From an uncultured Thermomicrobiaceae bacterium (GTDB lineage Bacteria > Chloroflexota > Chloroflexia > Thermomicrobiales > Thermomicrobiaceae): 64,000 nucleotides of DNA. Shown here one piece after another: positions 6,878 through 24,332 of the stretch. How positions within the stretch are numbered: position 1 is the first letter of the stretch; each line of letters opens with the position of its first letter. The translations under genes and the position numbers were made by a program. The stretch lies in contig CALKCJ010000002.1 of NCBI GenBank assembly GCA_938082375.1, positions 1 through 64,000 of the forward strand, read 5' to 3'. The notes below the pieces were generated by a model that had not been told where the DNA came from, searched no databases, and worked only from the letters and a program-made list of their open reading frames with translations.

Positions 6878-7864
6878 TCAGCCGAGCCGCACCCTACCGG
6901 CGAATGGCCCGCCCGAGGCCAGAAAGGCTCGCGCCGCCGCGCCGTAGACCCCGGCGTTGTCTCCGAGCGCCGATGGCAACACGCGTACAGTGCCCACGAT
7001 GTAGGTGATGGCATAGTACCGAAGCCAACGCCGGAGTGGTTCTAGCAGCAGATCGCCGGCCCGGGCCACCCCTCCACCGATGACGATCATCTCCGGGTTG
7101 AAGACGTTGACCAGCCCCGCGAGGCCCACAGCCAGCGCCCGGCCGGCGCTTTCGAAGACGCTGCGCGCCGCCTCATCGCCGGCCTGCGCCGCTTCCGTGA
7201 CCATCTCGGCCGTGACCGGCCCTCCACCAGCCGCCCGGCGGATCGCCTCCGAGCGGCCAGAGTGAGCCAGCGCCTCGCCATCCCGAGCCAGCGCCCAGCC
7301 ACTGACATACGCTTCCAGGCAACCGACTCCCCCGCAGTGGCAGCGCGGGCCGTATGGGTCGACCGGTAGATGGCCGACTTCGGCTCCCAGGCCGCGGTAG
7401 CCCTCGATGAGCTGGCCGTGCGCGATGATACCGCTACCCAGTCCGGTGCCGATCATCAGATGGATCAGATGGCGGCAACCGCGGGCTGCTCCGAAGATCG
7501 CTTCGCCCAGGGCCGCTCCGTTGCCGTCGTTGCCGATCACGATCCGCCGGCCCAGCCGCTCGGCCAGGATCGCCCGTAGCGGCACGTTGCGCCAGCCTGG
7601 CAGGTTGGGCCCGAAATAGATCACCCCTTCATCCGGATCAAGCGGCCCAGGGGCAACCACGCCGACGGGGACCTCCGGGTCAGCTCCGGAGGCGCTAATC
7701 ACCTGTTCCGCTAGGTTGACCATTCGGTCGATGACCGGCTGGACCCCCTCCTCCACTCTGGTCGGCGTGTTGACACGGTGAAGGATCGCGCCATCAGCCG
7801 TGACGAGGGCTGCTCGCAGGTTGGTACCGCCGAAGTCGATCGCGATCGCTGCCGGTCTGGCCAT
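6878..7864 (-). CDS. ROK-family sugar kinase (glucokinase-like)
   Basis: Cytosolic kinase of about 328 residues. It has the N-terminal phosphate loop AIDFGGTNLRAA, the catalytic aspartate region GNDGNGAALGEA, the ATP-binding IGTGLGSGII motif, and the zinc-binding ROK signature HCGGVGCLEAYVSG. An intact HCxxxGCxE arrangement and no DNA-binding domain indicate a kinase rather than a ROK repressor; glucose or N-acetyl sugars are likely substrates. I prefer the ATG at 7864 (GGGAGG four bases upstream) over the one at 7879, which precedes that Shine-Dalgarno. It sits 39 bp after a glycosyltransferase gene in the same minus-strand run. Confidence 0.9.
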   Translation of the reverse strand: MARPAAIAIDFGGTNLRAALVTADGAILHRVNTPTRVEEGVQPVIDRMVNLAEQVISASGADPEVPVGVVAPGPLDPDEGVIYFGPNLPGWRNVPLRAILAERLGRRIVIGNDGNGAALGEAIFGAARGCRHLIHLMIGTGLGSGIIAHGQLIEGYRGLGAEVGHLPVDPYGPRCHCGGVGCLEAYVSGWALARDGEALAHSGRSEAIRRAAGGGPVTAEMVTEAAQAGDEAARSVFESAGRALAVGLAGLVNVFNPEMIVIGGGVARAGDLLLEPLRRWLRYYAITYIVGTVRVLPSALGDNAGVYGAAARAFLASGGPFAGRVRLG

Positions 7865-13326: not shown

Positions 13327-14412
13327 TCAGGCTGCGGCATAGTGTTGCGCACCCAGGTGGCGCACCAGCCCCTTGAGCTGCATCTGCATGAGCAACGCGC
13401 TGACCTGGCTGATCGCCAGGCCAAGCTGCGCCGCCAGCTCGTCGATATGGCAGGGGCCGGGCTTGAGGTAAGCCAGGACGTCGCGCTCCTCGGGCGAAGC
13501 TGGCAAGACGGCCCGGACCTCGAGCGTGAGCTGGCGGGCCTCCAGCCGCAGATCCTGAAGGATGTCTTCCGCTGCGCTGATCGGCGTCGCGCCCTCGCGC
13601 AGGAGCTGGATCGTCCCCGCGCTCATCGGCGAGAAGATCGGGCCGGGCACGGCGTAGACCGCTCGGCCCTGGTCAGCGGCGAAGTTGGCAGTGATCAGTG
13701 CCCCGCTCTTGCGCGGCGCCTCGACGACCACCACACCCAGCGACAACCCGCTGATCAGCCGGTTGCGCACCGGAAAGTTCTTCGCCATCGGTTGCTCGCC
13801 GGGAGGGAACTCGGTGAGCAGCGCGCCCTGCCCGACGATCCGCTCGGCCAGTCGCGCGTGCTCTGGCGGGTAGATCACATCGATGCCGCTGCCGAGGACG
13901 GCGATCGTCCGACCTCCGGCGTCGAGCGCCGCCTCGTGCGCGACGCGGTCGATGCCCCGTGCTAGCCCGCTGACGACCGTCACCCCGCGCGAGGCCAGCT
14001 CGCCGCTGAGCTGGCGGGCGACGTCCTTGCCGTAGGCGGTGGGGCGGCGGGTGCCGACGAGGGCGACGGCCTGCTCATCCTCGGGCCGCAGCTCGCCTCG
14101 CACGAAGAGGACAAGCGGCGGGCTGGGGATCTCGCGGAGCAGGCGCGGGTAGGCCTCGTCAGCCAGCGGGACGAGCGCTGCGCCGCTGCGCCGCGCCCGC
14201 TCGAGTTCCCGCCCGAGGTCGAGCTGACGACGCTTCTCGACCAGAGCCTCCACGACCCGCCCCGGCAAGCCGGCCTGCCGGAGCGCAGCCGGGCTGGCCT
14301 GCCAGGCCGCCGCCAGGCTGCCGAACCGGGCCAGTAGCGTCTCGAGCCGCCCGGCGCTGACCCCTGGCACCAGGTGGAAGCCAAGCCAGTAGCCGATGTC
14401 TGGCGACGACAT
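13327..14412 (-). CDS. dprA: DNA-processing protein DprA/Smf
   Basis: A 361-residue single-strand-DNA-binding, RecA-loading protein used in natural transformation. N-terminal helix-hairpin-helix-like region (WLGFHLVPGVSAGRLETLL), then the Rossmann-type core with VALVGTRRPTAYG, SGLARGIDRVAHEAAL and NRLISGLSLGVVVVEA, and a C-terminal winged-helix domain (residues about 300-361). I use the ATG at 14412, with AAGGGG five bases upstream, not 14439. It heads the topA-hslVU run and is divergent from the first response regulator. An unrelated damaged DprA-like gene occurs at 39.0-39.8 kb. Confidence 0.95.
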   Translation of the reverse strand: MSSPDIGYWLGFHLVPGVSAGRLETLLARFGSLAAAWQASPAALRQAGLPGRVVEALVEKRRQLDLGRELERARRSGAALVPLADEAYPRLLREIPSPPLVLFVRGELRPEDEQAVALVGTRRPTAYGKDVARQLSGELASRGVTVVSGLARGIDRVAHEAALDAGGRTIAVLGSGIDVIYPPEHARLAERIVGQGALLTEFPPGEQPMAKNFPVRNRLISGLSLGVVVVEAPRKSGALITANFAADQGRAVYAVPGPIFSPMSAGTIQLLREGATPISAAEDILQDLRLEARQLTLEVRAVLPASPEERDVLAYLKPGPCHIDELAAQLGLAISQVSALLMQMQLKGLVRHLGAQHYAAA

Positions 14413-14551
14413 CTGTGCCCCTTCCCAAGCTGGCGGCAATCCTAGCAGCGGCCGGGAGGTGGGGCAATTGTGGCCGCGCCAGCGGAGAAAACCGGCATAC
14501 CTGCACTGCGCTAGAATTACTTGCTAGACACGATAGCGGCGGGACGAGACG

Positions 14552-15265
14552 ATGGCGACGGTTTTCCTGGTCGAAGACGACGAGAGCCTGAGCAACGCGG
14601 TGGCCTACAACCTCCGGCGGGCCGGCTACGACGTGGTCGCGCTCACCGACGGCGAGGCAGCGCTGCGGGCGCTCGCCGCCCAGCAGCCGGATCTGATCGT
14701 CTTGGACATCATGCTCCCCACCATCGACGGCTTCGAAGTCTGCCGCCAGGTGCGGCGCACCAGCTCCGTGCCCATCCTGGTGCTGACGGCTCGCGACGAC
14801 GAGGTCGACCGGGTCGTCGGGCTCGAGCTAGGCGCTGACGATTACCTCACCAAGCCGTTCTCGATGCGGGAGCTGCTGGCTCGGGTCAAGGCACTGTTGC
14901 GCCGGCGCGCGCTGTTGATCGAAGAGCTCCAGCGCGATCAGGCGAGGAGCTCCGAGCGGTTGGTGGTCGGCCCGGTGACCATCGATCTCGCGGCGCGGCG
15001 GGTCTGGCGCTCGGGTCAGGAAGTGGCGCTCAAGCCGAAGGAATACGAGCTGCTCGTTTACCTGGCTCGCCACCAGGGCCGCGTCTGCACCTCGGATGGT
15101 CTCCTGCGCGCGGTCTGGGGCTACGAGGGCTACGGGGAGACCCGAACGCTGGCCGTCCACATCCACGGGCTGCGCGAGAAGCTGGAAGACGATCCCCGGC
15201 ATCCCCGGCTGATCAAGACGGTGCGAGGGGTCGGGTATCGCCTCTCGCTGCAGGCGACCTCGTAA
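14552..15265 (+). CDS. OmpR/PhoB-family response regulator
   Basis: A 237-residue two-domain regulator. Receiver: acidic pair Glu8-Asp9-Asp10, phosphoacceptor Asp52 (LIVLDIMLP), Thr79 and Lys101 (YLTKPF). DNA-binding winged helix: LKPKEYELLVYLARHQ and TVRGVGYRL. Its immediate neighbour is a histidine kinase gene, 123 bp on, and the pst genes follow, so a PhoB/PhoP role in phosphate starvation is likely. A TAGAAT hexamer at 14512-14517 is a possible -10, with no good -35. A second, related regulator lies at 17733, so the roles of the two cannot be separated from sequence. Confidence 0.93.
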   Translation: MATVFLVEDDESLSNAVAYNLRRAGYDVVALTDGEAALRALAAQQPDLIVLDIMLPTIDGFEVCRQVRRTSSVPILVLTARDDEVDRVVGLELGADDYLTKPFSMRELLARVKALLRRRALLIEELQRDQARSSERLVVGPVTIDLAARRVWRSGQEVALKPKEYELLVYLARHQGRVCTSDGLLRAVWGYEGYGETRTLAVHIHGLREKLEDDPRHPRLIKTVRGVGYRLSLQATS

Positions 15266-15388
15266 CCGAGCCAAGGAGATTCGCGCTGCCCCCACCACCG
15301 CAGTCCCGTTCATGATCCAGTAATCTGGGAGGGCACTCGATTCTCTACGATTGTGCTGAGGTGAGGGCTGTCTATTCGAGGTGAACGA

Positions 15389-16732
15389 GTGCCGTTGTCG
15401 GTTCTGCTCTCCGTTCTAATCCTGCTGGCCACGTTCTGGCTAGCGGCCGGAGACCTCCTGGCCGTGCTGCTTGCCGCCGCGCTGGGCGCGGCGGTGGCAG
15501 CGCTGGTTCTGCGCTGGCGGTATCGACGCCAGCTTGTGGGCCGGGTGCAGACGCTTCAGCGCCAGCTCGCCGCGCATCACGCCGAGGCGTGGGCACTGCG
15601 GGAACCGGTCTCGCTGCCGGATCCGCTGGACGGGCTGCGCACACAGCTCGACGAGGCGCTCCGAGCGTCCAGCGAGCAGCGCCGGCTGGCCGAGGCGGAG
15701 CGGGAGCAGCTCCACCGGATCCTCGAGCACCTGAGCGACGGGATCGTGATCATCGATGCCCAAGGCAAGGTCAAGCTCCTCAACCGAGCTGCCCAAGAGC
15801 TGCTGAGCACCGGACGTGGCCGAGCGATCGGTCGCTCGTACCCTGAGGTGCTTCGCGACTACGAGCTGGATGAGCTGGTCCGCACATCTGCCGCAGGGGC
15901 AACCAGCCCGCCGAGCCGTTTCGTCGAGCTGGGGCACCCGCGGCGGACGGTGCAGGCTCTGGCCTCCTCGCTGCCCGGCCCGAGTGGCCCGATGGTCACG
16001 CTGATCCTGCGCGACATCACCGAGCTGCGCCGTACCGAGGCGATCCGGCGCGACTTCATCGCCAACGTCTCGCACGACCTGAGGACGCCGCTGGCCGGGC
16101 TGCAAGCCCTCGTCGAGACGCTACTCGACGGCGCGCTCGAAGACCCGACGGTGGCCCGCGACTTCCTCAACCGGATCGCGACCGAGGTCGACCACCTGAC
16201 CCGGCTCGTCACGCAGCTTCTCGAGTTGACCCGCGCCGAAGCCGGCCAGCTCCACCTCCACCGGATGCCGACCGACCTGGCGGCGCTCATCGAACAGGTA
16301 CTGGCCCGCTTCGAGCCTCGCGCCCGTGCCAAGGGGCTGGAGCTGGAGCCTAGGCTGCCTTCCGCGCTCCCGCCTATCGTCTGCGATCCGGAGCGGATCG
16401 GCCAGGTGCTGTCCAATCTCCTCGACAACGCCATCAAGTTCACTCCGCCGGGTGGGCATATTACGGTAAGTCTGGAGGCAACCGAGAACGCCGTGCGCGT
16501 CGCCGTCAGCGACACCGGGCCGGGGATCCCGTCCGACGACCTGGATCGTATCTTCGAGCGCTTCTACAAGGCCGACCGCTCGCGCTCCGCCAGCGGCAGC
16601 GGGCTTGGGCTGGCGATCGTGAAGCACCTGATACAGCTCCACGGCGGTACCGTCTGGGCCGAGAGCCCTCCGCGCTCGGGGGCGACCATCGGCTTCACGT
16701 TGCCGTTGAATTTCACATCCGCTTCACAGTAG
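15389..16732 (+). CDS. phoR: Sensor histidine kinase, PhoR-like
   Basis: Membrane kinase of 447 residues. Two closely spaced hydrophobic helices (residues about 3-19 and 22-41) with almost no periplasmic loop resemble PhoR. A PAS domain (about 105-215, LSDGIVIIDAQGK), a HisKA domain with His229 in NVSHDLRTPL, and an HATPase domain with Asn347 (LSNLLDNAIKF), DTGPGI (375-380) and GSGLGLA (403-409) follow. It should phosphorylate the PhoB-like partner upstream. The GTG start at 15389 has GAGGTGA four bases before it. The 3' end contains two TTCACA repeats 11 bp apart. Confidence 0.92.
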   Translation: MPLSVLLSVLILLATFWLAAGDLLAVLLAAALGAAVAALVLRWRYRRQLVGRVQTLQRQLAAHHAEAWALREPVSLPDPLDGLRTQLDEALRASSEQRRLAEAEREQLHRILEHLSDGIVIIDAQGKVKLLNRAAQELLSTGRGRAIGRSYPEVLRDYELDELVRTSAAGATSPPSRFVELGHPRRTVQALASSLPGPSGPMVTLILRDITELRRTEAIRRDFIANVSHDLRTPLAGLQALVETLLDGALEDPTVARDFLNRIATEVDHLTRLVTQLLELTRAEAGQLHLHRMPTDLAALIEQVLARFEPRARAKGLELEPRLPSALPPIVCDPERIGQVLSNLLDNAIKFTPPGGHITVSLEATENAVRVAVSDTGPGIPSDDLDRIFERFYKADRSRSASGSGLGLAIVKHLIQLHGGTVWAESPPRSGATIGFTLPLNFTSASQ

Positions 16733-16741
16733 CCATTCACC
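16712..16741 (+). promoter_or_regulatory. Candidate PHO box overlapping the phoR stop
   Basis: TTCACA occurs at 16712 and again at 16723, exactly 11 bp apart, followed by TTCACC at 16736 (13 bp further). Eleven-bp direct repeats with a TTCAC core resemble actinobacterial PHO boxes. A TATGCT at 16749 could be a -10. No gene starts until 17195, and half of the site is phoR coding sequence, so confidence is low. Confidence 0.3.
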
Positions 16742-16859
16742 GGCAGGGTATGCTCCTGATCGAGGGCGATCCAGCAGCTCCCCTCCAACCCGAGGCTAGG
16801 CCGGCTATCACCGGCGCCTATTGCGAACCCCCCGCGGGTCTCCCACTTCTCCTCACGCC

Positions 16860-16890
16860 GGGCGGTGATGTCCCCCCACCATCACCGCCC
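16860..16890 (+). terminator. Strong hairpin, probable terminator of the phoB-phoR transcript
   Basis: An 11-bp perfect inverted repeat (GGGCGGTGATG at 16860-16870, CATCACCGCCC at 16880-16890) with a nine-base loop lies 128 bases after the phoR stop. It is followed by TCCCC rather than a T run, so it is not a classical intrinsic terminator. Confidence 0.6.
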
Positions 16891-16990
16891 TCCCCTGCTC
16901 TTTGCGCAGGCTCGAGCATCCCGCTGCAGGACATGAGCAGGATGTGCCCCACCTGTGAGTGGTCGGGTTCAGCCCCCAGTCGGGGCTCCC

Positions 16991-17095
16991 CTCACCCCGG
17001 CTTCGTCACCCCCCTCTCCCGCCGCGCTAGAGAGGGGCTGGGGATAGCGTCGTCACCCCTCTCCCGTAGGGCAGCAGAGGGGACGGGGGTAAGGG
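16991..17095. repeat. Two tandem REP-like palindromic repeats
   Basis: Two similar units of about 46 bp follow one another. The first has CCCCTCTC (17011-17018) pairing with GAGAGGGG (17030-17037). The second has CCCCTCT (17056-17062) pairing with AGAGGGG (17076-17082). Both begin CGTCACC and end in a G-rich run. The pattern of a CCCTCACCCC lead, CCCCTCTCCCG stem and GGGGAGGGG return is a repeat type widespread in GC-rich bacterial intergenic DNA. Confidence 0.65.
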
Positions 17096-17194
17096 CAGGC
17101 GAAGTGATCAATCCGTGGAGTCTCCGTGGTTGACTTGGGATGCTCCCCATGAGGGGGCAGAGGCACGGGCGGCCGATGGGCCTGGGGCGTGCCG

Positions 17195-17590
17195 ATGACG
17201 CAACAACGAACCAGCACGAGATGGATCGGGCCGGTCATCCTCGTCGAGCAGGAATGGCCGGCCCGTGCCTACCTCAAGGCGCAGCTCGAGGAGGAGGGGC
17301 TGTGGGTGGTCGCCCTGCCCGCGCCGAGCGACGCTATCGCGTATTTGGAGCGCTGGGAGATTGTTCCCACGCTCTTCATCCTCGATTTGACCGGACAGCC
17401 TGCTGAGGAGCAGTCACGCTTCCTGGAACTGCTCCGCCGCCGGCCGGACGTTCCGGTCATCGTGCTGAAAAGCCCGATGCTCGCCGGGCAGCCCGACGTC
17501 GAAGCCCGGGCTGCCCGCGTGCTGGTCCGTCCCTTCAGCGTCGATGATGTGGTGCGCACCGTCGCCGAGGCGCTGGGCGGATGTCGGTGA
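17195..17590 (+). CDS. Stand-alone degenerate response-regulator receiver domain
   Basis: A 131-residue protein with the alternating strand/helix pattern of a receiver and nothing else. The phosphoacceptor position is kept (Asp64 in LFILDLTG), but the N-terminal acidic pair reads Glu18-Gln19-Glu20, the Thr/Ser switch position is Lys92 (VIVLKSP) and the invariant lysine is Arg112 (VLVRPF). Such pseudo-receivers usually act as phosphorylation-independent partners or are phosphorylated abnormally. It lies between phoR and the second PhoB-like gene, directly ahead of the PHO operator. Start at the ATG 17195; a GTG two codons earlier is also possible. Confidence 0.75.
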   Translation: MTQQRTSTRWIGPVILVEQEWPARAYLKAQLEEEGLWVVALPAPSDAIAYLERWEIVPTLFILDLTGQPAEEQSRFLELLRRRPDVPVIVLKSPMLAGQPDVEARAARVLVRPFSVDDVVRTVAEALGGCR

Positions 17591-17624
17591 GCTGGCAGCC
17601 ATCGGCAGGCGGCGCTCACCCTAC

Positions 17625-17663
17625 GTTAATCGTGCGTTAACTCCCCGCTCGCGTGCCGTTAAC
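17625..17663 (+). promoter_or_regulatory. PHO box: four 11-bp-spaced half-sites
   Basis: GTTAAT at 17625, GTTAAC at 17636 and GTTAAC at 17658 stand at multiples of exactly 11 bp; the slot at 17647 (GCTCGC) is degenerate. The arrangement, 6-bp direct repeats with 5-bp spacers, is that of PhoP/PhoB operators (TTAACA type in Bacillus). It lies just upstream of the second response regulator and the pst genes and 10 bp before a TACAGT -10-like hexamer (17674-17679), so it would overlap the -35 region as activator sites do. Confidence 0.75.
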
Positions 17664-17673
17664 CCTCCGACGG

Positions 17674-17679
17674 TACAGT
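17674..17679 (+). promoter_or_regulatory. Candidate -10 of the phoB2-pst operon
   Basis: TACAGT lies 10 bp after the last PHO half-site and 53 bp before the start of the second regulator gene. No -35 hexamer of its own is visible, as expected for a promoter that depends on an activator bound over that region. Confidence 0.45.
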
Positions 17680-17732
17680 GAGGAAGGACGGAAGGCGGGG
17701 CAAGCCCGGGCTTCGTCAAGGAGCAGGAATGG

Positions 17733-18521
17733 ATGGTCGGGCAGCGTGAAGGCAGAGCTCCTAGGTCTGGTTCGAGCGTCGAGCGGCGTCGGGTGCTCAT
17801 CGTCGAGGACGACGCGACCCTGGCAGAGTTGCTGCGCTACAACCTCGAGCGGCACGGCTACAGCGCCTGGATCGCTGCCGACGGCAAGCAGGCGATGATG
17901 CTGGCTCGCTCGGTGCGGCCCGACCTGGTGATCCTCGACCTGATGCTGCCCGGCATCGATGGCCGGGATGTCTGCCGGCTGATCCGCAAGTGGTCATCGG
18001 TGCCGATCCTGATCCTGACTGCCCGCGACAGCGAGGAGGATGTCGTCGCGGGGTTCGCTGTTGGGGCCGACGACTACCTGACCAAGCCGTTCCGCGTCCG
18101 CGAGCTAATGGCCCGGGTCGAGGCGCTGTTGCGGCGGGCCGCAGCCACAAGCGAGGAGCCGCGGGTCTTGACCGTTGGCAAGTTGGCGATCTTTCTCGAC
18201 GAGCACCGGGTGCTCTTTCATGACCGCGAGGTCCACCTTCCGCCTAAAGAGTTCACGCTGCTGGCAGCGCTCGTCAAGCGAGCTGGCCAGGCCTGCACCC
18301 GTGCCGAGCTCCTCGACCTAGTGTGGGGCCGCGAGGTGATCGTGGATCCCCGAAATATCGATGTGCATATCCGGCGGATTCGCGCTGCGCTGGAAGGAGA
18401 GCCCGATGGGTCGCACCTAATCCAGACTGTGCACGGCGTTGGCTACCGGTTTGTACCGGACGTGAACGAGTGGTTGATGCCTGAGACGGGAGGAGGACAG
18501 TACGGTGGAGAAGTGGCGTGA
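17733..18521 (+). CDS. phoB: Second OmpR/PhoB-family response regulator (phosphate operon)
   Basis: A 262-residue regulator. After a 19-residue N-terminal tail comes a complete receiver: VEDD acidic cluster, phosphoacceptor in [10 protein letters not shown], the threonine in LILTARD and lysine in YLTKPF. The C-terminal winged helix has [18 protein letters not shown] and HGVGYRF. AAGGAG lies eight bases before the chosen ATG. It overlaps pstS by 17 bases and is preceded by the 11-bp PHO repeats, so it is probably autoregulated and drives the pst genes. Only one histidine kinase gene is visible, so it may share PhoR with the upstream regulator. Confidence 0.92.
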
Positions 18522-19647
18522 TCCTCAAGCCTTTCGCTTGTTAGCGGCCGAGCCTCTCAGCCGCCGAGCGTTACTCCGGCGCGCAGCGGTCACCGGGCTC
18601 TCGGTTCCGATGGTCGCGGCGCTGCTGGCAGCCTGCCGGCAGGCGGAGGCAACCCCCACACCGGCGGTGGGCGGCGCCGCACCCAGCCCGACCGCCCCAG
18701 CGGCGACGCCGACTACTGCGGCCGAGCAGCTTTCTGGCCTGATCACCATCGACGGATCGAGCACGGTCTTCCCGATCAGCGAGGCCGTGGCTGAGGAGTT
18801 CCAGAAGCAGTACCCGGGAGTGAAGGTCACGGTCGGCATCTCGGGAACCGGCGGTGGTTTCAAGAAGTTCTGTAACAAGGAGACCGATATCAGTGACGCC
18901 TCGCGGCCGATCAAGGATTCGGAGCTCCAGACCTGCCAGCAAAACGGTGTCGAGTTTATCGAGTTGCCGGTCGCGTTTGATGGGCTCGCGGTCGTCGTCA
19001 ACCCGCAGAACGACTGGGTCGACCAGCTCACCGTCGAGGAGCTGAAGAAGATATGGGCGCCCGAGGCGCAGGGAGTCATTACCCGTTGGAACCAGATCCG
19101 GCCGGAGTGGCCAGACGCGCCGCTGAACCTCTACGGCGCGGGCACGGACTCCGGCACCTTCGACTACTTCACGGAGGCGATCGTGGGCAAGAGTGGGGCC
19201 AGTCGCGGGGACTACACCGCGTCCGAGGACGACAACGTCCTGGTTCAGGGCGTGGCCGGCGACGTGAACGCGCTCGGTTACTTCGGCCTGGCCTACGCCG
19301 TCGAGAACGAGGGCCGGGTCAAGCTTGTGCCGATCGTGAACCCAAAGACCGGTGAAGCGGTCATCCCCAGCCTAGAGACGGTGAACAAGGGGCAGTACGT
19401 CCCGCTCTCCCGGCCGATCTTCATCTATGTCGCGCTGACAGCGGCGGAACGGCCGGAGGTCGACGCCTTCGTGCGATTCTACCTCGAGCACGCGGCAGAG
19501 CTCTCCGCCGAGGTGGGCTACGTCCCGTTGCCGGACGAGGCGTACCGGCTTGGCGCGGAGCGGTTCGACCAGCGCAAGACCGGTTCGGTGTTCCAGGGAG
19601 TAGAAGTCGGTGTGTCGATCGAGGATATCCTGCGTCGCGAGCAGTAG
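18505..19647 (+). CDS. pstS: Phosphate-binding lipoprotein PstS
   Basis: Exported phosphate receptor of 380 residues. A twin-arginine-like signal ([14 protein letters not shown]) leads to a lipobox LLAAC at about residue 36, then a Pro/Thr-rich linker, then the binding domain with [18 protein letters not shown], the phosphate-contact [13 protein letters not shown] and [15 protein letters not shown]. The GTG start has GGGAGGAGG eight bases upstream and lies inside the end of the preceding regulator gene. Delivers phosphate to PstCAB encoded immediately downstream. Confidence 0.95.
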
Positions 19648-19729
19648 CGCGGGGTGAGCCACCTCCAGCAGGTAGCTATGCGGCGCGCGTCTGGATGAGT
19701 AGAATCGGCCGTCAGGAGGGGTGCCGGCA

Positions 19730-20728
19730 TTGGCGATGGACAGCGCTCCAGAAGCAGCGTACACATCCACAACCGCCCATCTGGCAGCGGTCGCCGAGCG
19801 ACAAGAGCGCATCCGGCGCACGCTCGAGGGTGGGCTGGCGCAGGATCGCCGTCGCCGCGTCCGCGAGGGCGTCATTACCAGTAGCCTTTTCCTGGCGGCC
19901 GCAATCTCCGTCCTGACCACCGCCGGGATCATCTACACCCTGGGCATCGAGACGTTTCACTTCTTCCAGCGGGTCTCGATCGTCGACTTCTTGACTGATA
20001 CCCAGTGGACACCGCTGTTCACCGAGAAGCATTTCGGGATTGCGCCACTCGCGGTCGCCACGCTCCTGGTCTCGTCGATCGCGATGCTCGTCTCGCTGCC
20101 CCTCGGGCTACTGGCAGCCATCGGCCTGGCCGAGTACCTGCCACTTCGCCTGGCGCGCGTGATCAAGCCGATCCTCGAGATCCTTGCCGGCGTGCCGACC
20201 GTCGTCTACGGCTATTTCGCGCTGCTCTTCGTGACGCCGCTCCTCCAGCGCTTCATCCCCAACCTGCAGGTCTTCAACGCGCTCTCGGCCGGCTTGGTGA
20301 TGGGGATCATGATCCTGCCGCTGGTGGCCTCGCTCTCGCAGGACGCAATGCTGGCTGTGCCGCAGTCGCTGCGTGAAGCTGCCTACGCGCTGGGTGCGAC
20401 CAAGCTCGAGGTTGTGTGGCGAGTAATCCTGCCAGCCTCGCTCTCGGGCATCGTCGCTTCGTTCATCCTGGCGGTCTCGCGGGCAGTGGGCGAGACGATG
20501 ATCGTCGTGATCGCGATGGGCAACACCCCGCGCCTCTCGTTCAACCCGCTGGAGCAGATGCAGGCGATGACCGCCTACATCGTCCAGGTGAGCCTGGGTG
20601 ACACGCCGCACGGCACGCTCGAGTATCAGACGATCTTCGCCGTCGGCGCGACACTGTTCCTGATCACGATGGTGCTGAACCTGCTGAGCTTCCGCCTGCT
20701 GCGGCGTTTCCGGGAGATCTACCAGTGA
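19730..20728 (+). CDS. pstC: Phosphate ABC-transporter permease PstC
   Basis: Inner-membrane permease of about 332 residues with six predicted helices after a 60-residue cytoplasmic N-terminus. The EAA loop for ATPase contact reads [20 protein letters not shown], and [12 protein letters not shown] is a PstC/PstA hallmark. Start choice is uncertain: AGGAGGGG at 19715-19721 is eight bases from the TTG at 19730, which I prefer, and 14 from the ATG at 19736; GTG at 19721 overlaps the motif. It forms the channel with PstA. Confidence 0.92.
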
Positions 20729-21630
20729 CGGGTACGCAGCTCAGAACGACCGTGGGGACTGACACCGAATTCCAGCCCCGGCTGCCTCTCCGACGGAAGG
20801 TGGGTGCCGTCTTCGGGGCCTTGACGGTCGTGGCGATGGCGATCGGGCTGCTGACCCTTGCGGCGCTGATCGTCGACGTGGTGCGCGACGGCTGGACGGT
20901 GCTCTCCTGGGACTTCATCCGGAGCTTCCCCTCGCGGCGGCCGAGCGAAGCTGGCATTCGCTCGGCGCTGATCGGCACGGTCTATATCATGGTGCTGGTC
21001 GCGATCATCGCGTTTCCGCTGGGGGTGTCGGCCGCAGTCTACCTGGAAGAATTCGCCCCCAAGAACCGGCTGACGAGCTTCATCGAGCTGAACATCTCGA
21101 ACTTGGCGGCGGTGCCGTCGATCGTCTACGGACTGCTCGGCCTCGGGATCTTCGTGCGCGCGTTGACGCTCGGGCCGAGCCTGATCGCCGGGGCCTTGAC
21201 GCTGATCCTGCTGATCCTGCCGATCATCATTATCGCCGGTCGGGAGGCACTGCGGGCCGTGCCGCCCTCGATCCGCGAGGCCGGCTATGCGTTGGGCGCG
21301 TCGCGCTGGCAGACGGTGCGGATGTTTGTCTTGCCGGTCGCCATGCCCGGTATTCTGACTGGAACCATCTTGGCGCTTTCACGGGCGATCGGAGAGACCG
21401 CCCCGTTGATCACGATCGGCGCGCTCACCTACATTGCCTTCACCCCGAAGAGCCTGCTCGATCCCTTCACCGTGTTGCCGATCCAGATCTATAACTGGGT
21501 GTCGCGCCCTCAGCCAGCCTTCCACCAGCTCGCGGCCGGTGGCATCATCATCCTGCTCGCGATGCTGCTGACCTTCAACGGGCTGGCGATCGTGCTGCGG
21601 GCGCGCTTGCAGCGCCAGATCCGAGACTGA
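20725..21630 (+). CDS. pstA: Phosphate ABC-transporter permease PstA
   Basis: Inner-membrane permease of 301 residues with six predicted helices. It has [14 protein letters not shown], matching the PstA signature, and the EAA loop [20 protein letters not shown]. Its GTG start overlaps the pstC stop (GTGA), showing translational coupling. Confidence 0.94.
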
Positions 21631-21642
21631 GAGGGGAAGAGC

Positions 21643-22452
21643 ATGACCGCGCCGACTACCGAGCACCGCCACATCGTCGTTCCCCCGGGCTCAGTCGCGT
21701 TGCGCATCGAGAACCTCTCAGTCTGGTACGCCGCATATCAAGCCATCCGCGACATCTCGATGGTTATTCCAGAGCGGAGTATCACCGCCATCATCGGCCC
21801 CTCGGGCTGCGGCAAAAGCACGCTGCTGCGTGCGCTCAACCGGCTGCACGACACGACACCCGGTGCGCGGGTGGAGGGGCATGTCTGGCGGAACGGGGTC
21901 GACCTTTACGCACCGACGACCGACCCGGTCTGGGTCCGCCGACACATCGGAATGATCTTCCAGCGACCGAACCCGTTTCCCAAGTCGATCTTCGAGAACG
22001 TCGCCTTCGGCCTGCGGGTCAACGGCTACCGGGGCACCGTGGTCGAGCGGGTAGAGCAGGCGTTGCGGGCGGCTGCGCTGTGGGACGAGGTGAAGGACAA
22101 GCTGCACACCAGCGCGCTGGCCCTGTCCGGCGGCCAGCAGCAGCGCTTGTGCATCGCGCGGGCGCTGGCAGTCAAGCCGGAGATCCTACTCATGGACGAG
22201 CCATGCTCAGCGCTCGATCCAGTGGCGACCATGCGGATCGAAGACTTGATGCGCGAGCTGGCGAAGTCGTATACCATCGTCATCGTGACGCACAACATGC
22301 AGCAGGCCTCCCGAGTCTCGGACTACACAGCGTTTATGCTAGCCGGTGAGGATCGGATCGGTGAGCTTATCGAGTACGCGCCGACGCGGGAAATCTTCCT
22401 GCGCCCGCGTGACCGGCGGACTGAGGACTACATTACCGGGCGGATCGGATAG
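21643..22452 (+). CDS. pstB: Phosphate ABC-transporter ATPase PstB (first copy)
   Basis: Cytosolic ATPase of 269 residues. Walker [10 protein letters not shown], signature [15 protein letters not shown], Walker B ILLMDEP and the switch histidine in VTHNMQQA are all present. The segment after Walker B reads DEPCSALDP, with Cys where most PstB have Thr. It energises PstCA. A second pstB follows after 105 bp. Confidence 0.94.
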
Positions 22453-22557
22453 CAGCGAGCACGGCCGCGTGCCGCTGTCACCGGCCGAGTGGGTCTCGCT
22501 GGATGTCGCAGTGAGCCGCCGGAGCCTGATCCTTAGCCATGGCAAGGAGCACGGCTG

Positions 22558-23406
22558 ATGAGTGAGCCCCTGGTCTCCGTGACCGTCCGCCAGCGGGAGC
22601 CAGCGCAGAGGCTCGCTGAGCGCGAGGCCGTGGCAGCGAGTATGACCGTTGAGCGCCTCAGCGCGTTCTACGGGAAATTCCAAGCGCTGGCAGATCTCAC
22701 GTTCCCGATCCATCCCGCGGCGGTCACCGCGGTCATCGGGCCGTCAGGCTGCGGCAAGTCCACCTTTATCCGCTGCCTCAACCGCCTGCACGAGCTGACG
22801 CCCGGTGCCCGCGTCAGCGGCCGAGTCCTGCTCGACGGCGTGGATATCTACGATCCCGCCATCGACCCGGCCCGGGTACGCCAGTTGATCGGGATGGTCT
22901 TCCAGAAGCCGAACCCGTTCCCGCACCTCTCCGTCTACGACAACGTGCTCGCCGGCATCCGGCTGCACCGCTCGCGCATCCCCAAACCCCAGGCCGACGA
23001 AATCGTGGAGCGCAGCCTGCGGGCCGCAGTGCTGTGGGACGAGGTCAAAGACAAGCTAGGCGCTCCTGGCTCGTCACTCTCCGGCGGCCAGCAGCAGCGC
23101 CTGTGCATCGCGCGGGCGCTGGCCATCGAGCCGGAGGTGCTGCTGATGGACGAGCCGACCAGCGCGCTCGACCCTATCGCGACCTACCACATCGAGGAGC
23201 TGATCGCCGAGCTGAAGCAGCGCTACACCATCGTCATCGTCACGCACAACATGCAGCAGGCCGCCCGGGTCGCCGACTACGTCGCGTTCTTCCTGGGCGG
23301 CGAGGAGCGAACCGGGCGCCTGATCGAGTTCGACACGGCGGAGCAGATCTTCACCAATCCCAAGCGACGGGAGACCGAGGAGTACATCACCGGCAAGATT
23401 GGGTGA
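22558..23406 (+). CDS. pstB: Phosphate ABC-transporter ATPase PstB (second copy)
   Basis: A 282-residue paralogue of the preceding gene with an additional 20-residue N-terminal tail. Walker [11 protein letters not shown], signature [15 protein letters not shown], Walker [14 protein letters not shown] and [13 protein letters not shown] are intact, so both copies should be active. The two differ most in the helical domain ([16 protein letters not shown] here against [15 protein letters not shown]). Whether they form a heterodimer or alternate is not known. Confidence 0.94.
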
Positions 23407-23435
23407 GCGGTGGCCGCCCATCAGCGTCGTATACC

Positions 23436-23465
23436 CCGACACGCCACACTCACTGGTGGTACAAT
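23436..23465 (+). promoter_or_regulatory. Candidate promoter of phoU
   Basis: CCGACA (23436-23441) and TACAAT (23460-23465) are 18 bp apart in the 230-bp gap between the second pstB and phoU. The start site would leave a leader of about 165 bases. The remainder of the gap shows no other feature. Confidence 0.42.
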
Positions 23466-23636
23466 GGGGCAAACCGCGCGGCCTCAGACGGATATGGCCA
23501 GCTCGCGGGGCGACGCGAGGCGGCCCGGCAAGTTTTCTGGCCGTGGTCACGCACCCTCGCGAGCGCCAGCGAATGCAGCAGGGCAGAGAGCCAATGCAGC
23601 CAGGATGAGCACGACTCTAGGCAAGGCAGGTGTGTG

Positions 23637-24332
23637 ATGGGTACGGCAATCCGCACGCGAGCCGAGTTTGAGCGCGAGCTGCAGTCGCTGCGTGAGGAGG
23701 TGCTCAACCTCGGCAGCATGGTCGAGAAGGCAGTTCAACGAGCGGTCCAGGCGCTCAAGCACCGGGATGTCGAGCTGGCACGGCAGGTGATCGAGAGCGA
23801 CCAGGAGATCGACGAGCGCACCTATGCGCTGGAGGAGAAGGCGCTCCTCCTCATCGCCACCCAGCAGCCGCTGGCCACCGACCTCCGGATCATCGCGGCA
23901 ACGCTGTTCATTATCAGCGAGCTGGAGCGAATCGGCGACTACGCCGAGGGCATCGCCACGATCGCGCAGCGGCTCGCCGATCGGCCGCCGCTCAAGCCGC
24001 TGATCGATATCCCGCGGATGGCCGAGGTTTCGACCGAGATGTTGCGGGGCAGTCTCGACGCGTTCATCGACCGCGACCTGGAGGCGTGCCGCGCGATCTG
24101 GCGGCGCGACGACGAGGTGGACGCGCTCTACGACCAGGTGTACCGAGAGCTCCTGACCTACATGATCAGTGACCCCTCGACGATCGAGCGAGCCACGTTG
24201 CTTCTCTGGACAGCCCATAACCTGGAGCGGATCGCCGACCGGGTCACCAATATCTGCGAGCGGATCGCCTTCGTGATTACCGGCGACCCACGCGCGCTCC
24301 CGGGCGAAGTCGAACCCGACTACCCGAAGTAA
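23637..24332 (+). CDS. phoU: Phosphate transport regulator PhoU
   Basis: All-helical protein of 231 residues made of two three-helix PhoU repeats. The metal-binding (E/D)xxxD motifs are seen in ELERIGDYAEGIA and NLERIADRVTNICER. It represses the Pho response when phosphate is ample by linking PstB with PhoR. The ATG at 23637 starts the conserved region; the open frame extends far upstream without homology. Confidence 0.94.
   Translation: MGTAIRTRAEFERELQSLREEVLNLGSMVEKAVQRAVQALKHRDVELARQVIESDQEIDERTYALEEKALLLIATQQPLATDLRIIAATLFIISELERIGDYAEGIATIAQRLADRPPLKPLIDIPRMAEVSTEMLRGSLDAFIDRDLEACRAIWRRDDEVDALYDQVYRELLTYMISDPSTIERATLLLWTAHNLERIADRVTNICERIAFVITGDPRALPGEVEPDYPK

Follow-up and report, generated by a model that had tools for sequence, protein, structure and literature searches.

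Response regulators of the Spo0F, RR468 and DivK type retain a complete active site and participate in phosphotransfer. CmrT of Clostridioides difficile carries a DNA-binding domain. It is encoded with a normal regulator in CmrRST, is a likely pseudo-receiver and possibly forms heterodimers, as stated in the part of PMC12548384 cited here. A pseudo-receiver is defined, in the part of PMC12632262 on which we draw, as a receiver fold in which at least one of the DD, D, T and K residues is missing. According to the same part of that source, the second of the two DD positions is a direct metal ligand, and about 80% of pseudo-receivers have a non-acidic residue there; Lys to Arg is a common change, and the phosphorylation chemistry may survive substitutions at DD, T or K. 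It also gives examples of pseudo-receivers that have a normal regulator as partner or proposed target (WhiI with BldM and CmrT with CmrR), describes GlnR and RamR, in which the Asp is needed for dimers and not for phosphorylation, and states that the on/off mechanisms of bacterial pseudo-receivers remain a mystery. In the part of PMC2991266 cited here, helix 1 of regulators is identified as a determinant of partner specificity.

The ORR locus

We analysed a 64-kb stretch of DNA (the window) from a genus of the Thermomicrobiaceae, here called g1. An ORF scan of the window found a stand-alone ORF of 131 aa with an ATG start, which we call ORR, in a cluster of phosphate genes. The features of the locus are as follows.

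14552 to 15265, + strand: phoB1, an OmpR/PhoB-family regulator with an intact active site
15389 to 16732, + strand: phoR/pnpS-type histidine kinase
17116 to 17137, + strand: 22-nt block TGGAGTCTCCGTGGTTGACTTG with TTGACT, just 5' of ORR, identical in 3/3 g1 genomes
17189 to 17194, + strand: candidate in-frame GTG start, two codons 5' of the ORR ATG
17195 to 17590, + strand: ORR pseudo-receiver, with E18-Q19-E20-W21, D64, K92 and R112-P113
17624 to 17680, + strand: PHO-box-like array of 11-bp units, then a -10-like TACAGT, 5' of phoB2 (alignment and matrix scan)
17733 to 18521, + strand: phoB2, an OmpR/PhoB-family regulator with an intact active site
18505 to 24332, + strand: pstS, pstC, pstA, pstB, pstB and phoU (Pfam and context)

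The gene order in the window is phoB1-phoR-ORR-phoB2-pstS-pstC-pstA-pstB-pstB-phoU, with dprA and topA (named by eye) 5' of the cluster. The first-pass annotation had placed the ORF between phoR and the second phoB, and the ORF positions bear this out. Pfam gave general families only for pstS, pstC, pstA, the first pstB and phoU; the pst gene names were taken from context, and the second pstB was named by reading. The ORF is real, as judged by the receiver fold of its product, its purifying selection and its relatives, and its codon-position GC is similar to that of the neighbouring genes.

Active site and fold of ORR

In the alignment with PhoB1 and PhoB2 of the window, ORR reads E18-Q19-E20 opposite E-D-D, D64 at the acceptor Asp, K92 at the Thr position and R112 at the Lys position. 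An earlier reading had held that the phosphoacceptor Asp was kept while the acidic pair and the Thr/Ser and Lys positions were changed. D64 confirms the former, and Q19, K92 and R112 are changes of the kind described; E18 is the Glu also found there in both window PhoBs, and only the second acidic residue of the pair is lost. Because E18 is normal for a PhoB, the five active-site positions show three losses rather than four. By its aligned residues ORR is therefore a pseudo-receiver under the definition in the part of PMC12632262 cited above, and the frequencies given there make the combination of Q19 and R112 typical of such proteins. ORR is not an aspartate-less receiver, since D64 is kept. 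It is not a canonical single-domain response regulator, in which DD, D, T and K are all present, and it is not an OmpR/PhoB response regulator, as it has 131 aa and no C-terminal winged-helix (PF00486) match.

The Pfam Response_reg model (PF00072) matched ORR with an E-value of 0.0041 and 17.7 bits, under the gathering cut-off of 30.2; none of 10 relatives reached that cut-off (best 22.4 bits). No Pfam cut-off was reached by any of the 11 family members tested (ORR and 10 relatives), and no NCBIfam cut-off by any of seven. The nearest curated near-miss was VpsR, in one relative (22.5 bits vs. 23.7), and PHROGs gave weak matches only, to function-unknown families. The receiver is nevertheless recognisable by sequence and fold: a family profile searched against the PDB returned KdpE receivers first (3e-9), and the structural neighbours of the ORR model were headed by receivers, with Z up to 16.8. 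This AlphaFold model, made from a 10-row alignment, has a mean pLDDT of 88.4, a pTM of 0.84 and a (beta-alpha)5 fold in which helix 4 is short (residues 100-105). The model of a distant family member (pLDDT 94.1, pTM 0.88) likewise matched receivers in the structure search. Among the best 50 structural matches listed, no special family stood out; the top rows were receivers, and a few matches bear other titles, e.g. 8oyp and 28tm. With the receiver fold recovered and the positions of Q19, K92 and R112 lost, the designation of ORR as a degenerate stand-alone receiver holds.

We compared ORR with the described proteins. It shares with pseudo-receivers, as treated in the cited part of PMC12632262, the receiver fold, the non-acidic second DD position and the Lys-to-Arg change. 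It differs from them in belonging to a family with a single domain and no output, in which the Asp and the Arg occur together in 30/30 members and an E/D-W-x-x-R motif is present. CmrT is an OmpR-family regulator (PMC12548384, in the part cited), whereas ORR is a bare receiver. In GlnR and RamR, the kept Asp serves dimers and not phosphorylation, according to the part of PMC12632262 cited; they are DNA-binding regulators, unlike ORR. One distant relative of the 10 matched the GlnR domain (GlnR_1st, PF21695) weakly, with an E-value of 0.034 and 14.5 bits vs. a cut-off of 27, and ORR was not listed for this model at E-values up to 10. ORR is like the single-domain regulators Spo0F, RR468 and DivK in fold and size. 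With PhoB1 and PhoB2 of its own cluster, it shares the receiver fold and a Glu as the first residue of the acidic pair, but it lacks both their DNA-binding domain and their GADDY...TKPF face, and the tree places it on a different branch.

A family of stand-alone pseudo-receivers

ORR is one of a group of related stand-alone pseudo-receivers in two classes of the phylum, not a relic of PhoB. GTDB calls the phylum Chloroflexota; NCBI places Thermomicrobium and Thermalbibacter under Thermomicrobiota. We found no description of the family in open-licence PMC papers. Profile searches were positive in 11/158 genomes of the window class at E-values up to 1e-18 (three of g1, six of a second genus, g6, and G005 and G112) and in 25/120 genomes of another class. 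Across the phylum, at least 12/400 genomes were positive at E-values up to 1e-14, a count that includes G132 (an ordinary receiver) and G225 (putative), and at least 10/400 at E-values up to 1e-18; both are lower bounds because 10 candidates were scored per genome. The weak matches in G006 and G013 (both g4) were rejected as relatives, being ordinary receivers, and the other weak matches of the first search in the relatives' genomes were sampled in part.

We aligned 30 members, which included 20 of the 25 other-class matches (G504, G540, G560, G579 and G590 were left out) and excluded G014, whose protein is identical to that of G008. D64, R112, P113, R24, L31, E33 and G35 are invariant in all 30, and W21 of the E/D-W-x-x-R motif is present in 25/30; as the rows were collected by profile similarity, shared residues were favoured, which accounts for part of this agreement. 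Acidic residues occupy the first position of the acidic pair in 9/30 and the second in 1/30, the residue after the pair is acidic in 27/30, and the Thr position holds Thr/Ser in 9/30. The varying positions include four neighbours or partners of the classical site, while the D and the R are constant. In the other class, where start codons are uncertain, single-domain means that the receiver has no further domain after it and that none was seen ahead of it.

In the tree, the family is separate from 11 ordinary receivers (two from the window, both PhoBs, and nine chosen from search matches) with support of 100/99. Local duplication of phoB was not supported by this tree. The phoB2-linked proteins of g1 and g6 form two tree groups, and the g6 group includes the long-branched, unlinked protein of G005. 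The conserved helix-1 residues are common to linked and unlinked members.

Conservation and selection

Relatives of ORR share 87 and 79% identity with it within the genus; for those from the family's other genera the figure is 31-41%. The gene is present in 3/4 g1 genomes and in 6/7 genomes of g6, which is apparently Thermomicrobium; both genera are in the Thermomicrobiaceae. The two genomes without the gene are assemblies of 81% and 54% completeness, and they are also without a phoB2 match at 1e-60. The carriers apparently include Thermalbibacter longus CFH 74404, Thermomicrobium sp. CFH 73360 and the bacteria HR27 and HR28.

By the NG86 method, omega of the gene was 0.206-0.227 in the three g1 pairs, compared with 0.137-0.159 for phoB2. 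In g6 it was 0.24-0.38 where computable, one identical-protein pair aside, and that of phoB2 was 0.02-0.08; three g6 pairs were undefined by saturation, and distant pairs are near saturation. These values indicate that the gene is constrained yet evolves faster than phoB2. Lack of conservation or of purifying selection had been named beforehand as grounds for dismissing the ORF; the close relatives and an omega of about 0.2 in the genus are the opposite result. A pseudogene is contradicted by the same omega.

Genomic linkage to phoB2-pst

The gene is located just 5' of phoB2-pst and its PHO-box-like promoter in 9/9 carrier genomes (three g1 and six g6). The g1 order is phoB1-phoR-ORR-phoB2-pst; dprA precedes the cluster in the window and G001, and the contig of G003 breaks off within phoB1. 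ORR-phoB2-pstS-pstC-pstA-pstB was found in 6/6 g6 genomes, the short G019 contig stopping within pstA, and dprA and phoB1-phoR are at a separate locus in 5/6. There, phoB1-phoR is 102, 284 and 108 kb from the gene in G008, G011 and G014, respectively. In G016 and G018 the two loci are on different contigs, and in G019 phoB1-phoR was not found. Two genomes have the gene about 0.7-0.8 kb from phoB2, still with phoB2-pst. Since phoB1-phoR is elsewhere in 5/6 g6 genomes, the gene tracks phoB2-pst and not phoR.

In G005 (g3), topA-dprA-phoB1-phoR-phoB2-pst is contiguous, without such a gene between phoR and phoB2. The start of the G005 relative lies 14 bases ahead of the end of cydB, itself after cydA (cytochrome bd oxidase genes). 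G006 (g4) has phoB2-pst without a pseudo-receiver gene. Other contexts were seen at 22 loci (20 of the other class, G112 and G005). Among the matches listed, the most widely shared neighbours are a CDP-alcohol phosphatidyltransferase-like ORF, downstream at five, and a lon-like ORF, upstream at four; Pfam identity was checked for two of the former and one of the latter, and many stretches end at contig ends. Close relatives, e.g. G236 and G556, have further neighbours in common. In one other-class locus (L151, 2381-7155), the member follows lon at a distance of about 1.2 kb and immediately precedes the CDP-alcohol phosphatidyltransferase gene. Searching the fetched stretches with the window pho and pst proteins found no pho-pst cluster at the 20 other-class loci; it returned generic ABC ATPases at three, one kinase, and one OmpR-type regulator about 4 kb off.

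PHO-box-like promoter of phoB2

The array 5' of phoB2 consists of the 11-bp units CGTTAATCGTG CGTTAACTCCC CGCTCGCGTGC CGTTAACCCTC, three of which read CGTTAA..., with TACAGT at -10 distance. The PhoB site of E. coli O157 is two 11-bp direct repeats, according to the part of PMC3978041 cited. We infer that PhoB proteins bind the array at 17624-17680. It aligned in 8/8 g1 and g6 genomes. A matrix built from five g6 genomes ranked 17624 first in the 64-kb window with 25.8 bits; the next places were an 11-bp shift of the same array (10.6 bits) and one of 1.8 bits, and the best of five mononucleotide shuffles reached 11.3 bits. With an eight-genome matrix, the element was found before phoB2 in G005 (34.7 bits), G006 (27.1) and G010 (21.6), i.e. 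at 3/3 scanned g3 and g4 loci, all without the pseudo-receiver gene there. This indicates that phoB2, which has its own promoter-like element, does not need ORR. In 4/5 scanned g6 genomes, the pseudo-receiver gene reaches with its 3' end into the first units of the array.

Possible role of ORR

We tentatively prefer the explanation that ORR acts on the PhoB2 branch as a binding partner insensitive to phosphorylation. The observations that support it are D64 and the Arg in 30/30 members, an acidic residue at the second position of the pair in only 1/30 and Thr/Ser at the Thr position in only 9/30, the receiver fold modelled for ORR and a distant member, the omega of 0.21-0.23 in the genus, the 9/9 linkage to phoB2-pst and the separate phoB1-phoR locus in 5/6 g6 genomes. 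The WhiI, CmrT, GlnR and RamR cases described above are precedents. ORR folds as a receiver, but aspartyl phosphorylation would not switch it in the normal manner; direct pairing of D64 with R112 would lock it in a single state. A protein partner would be bound by the conserved first loop and helix 1 (W21, R24, L31, E33 and G35); in the Thermomicrobiaceae this partner would be on the PhoB2-Pst branch and most simply PhoB2 itself. The amount of ORR, rather than its phosphorylation, would then tune PhoB2 output. The adaptor role suggested in the first-pass annotation may accordingly take the form of an adaptor for the second regulator, PhoB2, which is the form that we prefer. ORR has not kept the OmpR-type alpha4-beta5-alpha5 face: it has no GADDY, and its modelled helix 4 is short. 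A heterodimer of the usual PhoB type is therefore less likely. Also against the preferred explanation are the promoter-like element that phoB2 has of its own, present too in g3 and g4 where the gene is missing, the relatives found beside cytochrome bd oxidase genes in G005 and beside lon or a CDP-alcohol phosphatidyltransferase gene in the other class, and the tree, in which the linked proteins are not one clade that excludes the unlinked G005 relative. The proximity of ORR to phoB2 could be accidental.

The gene may instead be a passenger with a general role outside phosphate metabolism, its place beside phoB2 in two related genera being an inherited position. We consider this possible though doubtful, and nearly as likely as the preferred explanation. 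The other contexts (after cydAB in G005, and beside phosphatidyltransferase-like ORFs at 5/22 and lon-like ORFs at 4/22 loci among the matches listed) agree with it, as do the helix-1 residues conserved alike in linked and unlinked members and the separate promoter-like element of phoB2; a gene that stays with phoB2-pst where phoB1-phoR is apart (5/6 g6), even at a spacing of about 0.7-0.8 kb, is harder to reconcile with it. A weakly working phosphoacceptor, in which D64 is slowly phosphorylated by PhoR or small donors and ORR acts as a sink or relay, seems distinctly unlikely. The constancy of D64 and the acidic residue after the pair in 27/30 members would suit such a protein, and the part of PMC12632262 cited allows that DD, T and K changes need not end the chemistry. 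However, the second acidic residue, which that source gives as a direct metal ligand in receivers, is lost in 29/30 members, the Lys is replaced in 30/30 and the Thr/Ser is kept in only 9/30.

A decoy or antagonist that competes with PhoB1 and PhoB2 for PhoR, as the first-pass annotation had also proposed, is very unlikely. The gene is between phoR and phoB2 in the window genus, but phoR is elsewhere in 5/6 g6 genomes, and no pho-pst cluster was seen in the fetched stretches of the 20 other-class loci. Moreover, four helix-1 positions, onto which we presume the register of RR468-mutant positions (kinase-pairing rewiring) to carry over in ORR and the PhoB proteins, read P, A/T, Y and Q/E in eight distinct linked proteins and S/T/A, L, A/T/L/I/V and N/S/T in 16 PhoB1/PhoB2 proteins, three of which were read by eye. 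In this comparison, made at these four positions only, the linked proteins and PhoB1/PhoB2 share no residue at any position. That ORR is a decaying, functionless duplicate of phoB has a close to negligible probability: its lost catalytic residues and its faster evolution than phoB2 are set against an omega below 1 in every computable pair, the tree support of 100/99 apart from ordinary receivers, and positions kept across two classes.

The preferred explanation, a binding partner of the PhoB2 branch, can be extended to the two-class family. A fixed Asp-Arg pair would have replaced the Mg-Asp-Lys switch, giving a phosphorylation-independent module that different lineages attach to different pathways, and that in the Thermomicrobiaceae would be a co-regulator of the second PhoB. 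We regard this extension as rather unlikely; if it is true, the phosphate response would be set by the dose of a co-regulator as well as by phosphorylation. The family consists of bare pseudo-receivers with a kept D64/R112 pair, a conserved first loop and helix 1, and no output domains. It comes partly from thermophiles, and one lineage has it beside a well-understood pathway. The family makes directly testable why a dead receiver keeps its Asp.

Other features of the locus

No RNA element was found at Rfam gathering scores in 14000-19000, which includes the gap between phoR and ORR. The 22-nt block at 17116-17137 is possibly a promoter element for ORR. A perfect hairpin, GGGCGGTGATG...CATCACCGCCC, is present between phoR and ORR at 16860-16890 and is identical in 3/3 g1 genomes; it has no T run and is perhaps a terminator or attenuator. 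TTCAC repeats followed by TATGCTC are found at the end of phoR (16711-16755), largely conserved in 3/3 g1 genomes, and are a possible second Pho-type promoter that is partly codon-constrained. An apparent small ORF (by eye) upstream of the pseudo-receiver gene in the g6 stretch L034 (about 6890-7160) is conserved in 5/5 aligned g6 stretches, with a hairpin after it in some, and was not seen in g1. The window pst operon has a tandem pstB pair (21643-22452 and 22558-23406), as have 7/7 of the g1 and g6 loci whose fetched stretches are long enough to include it.
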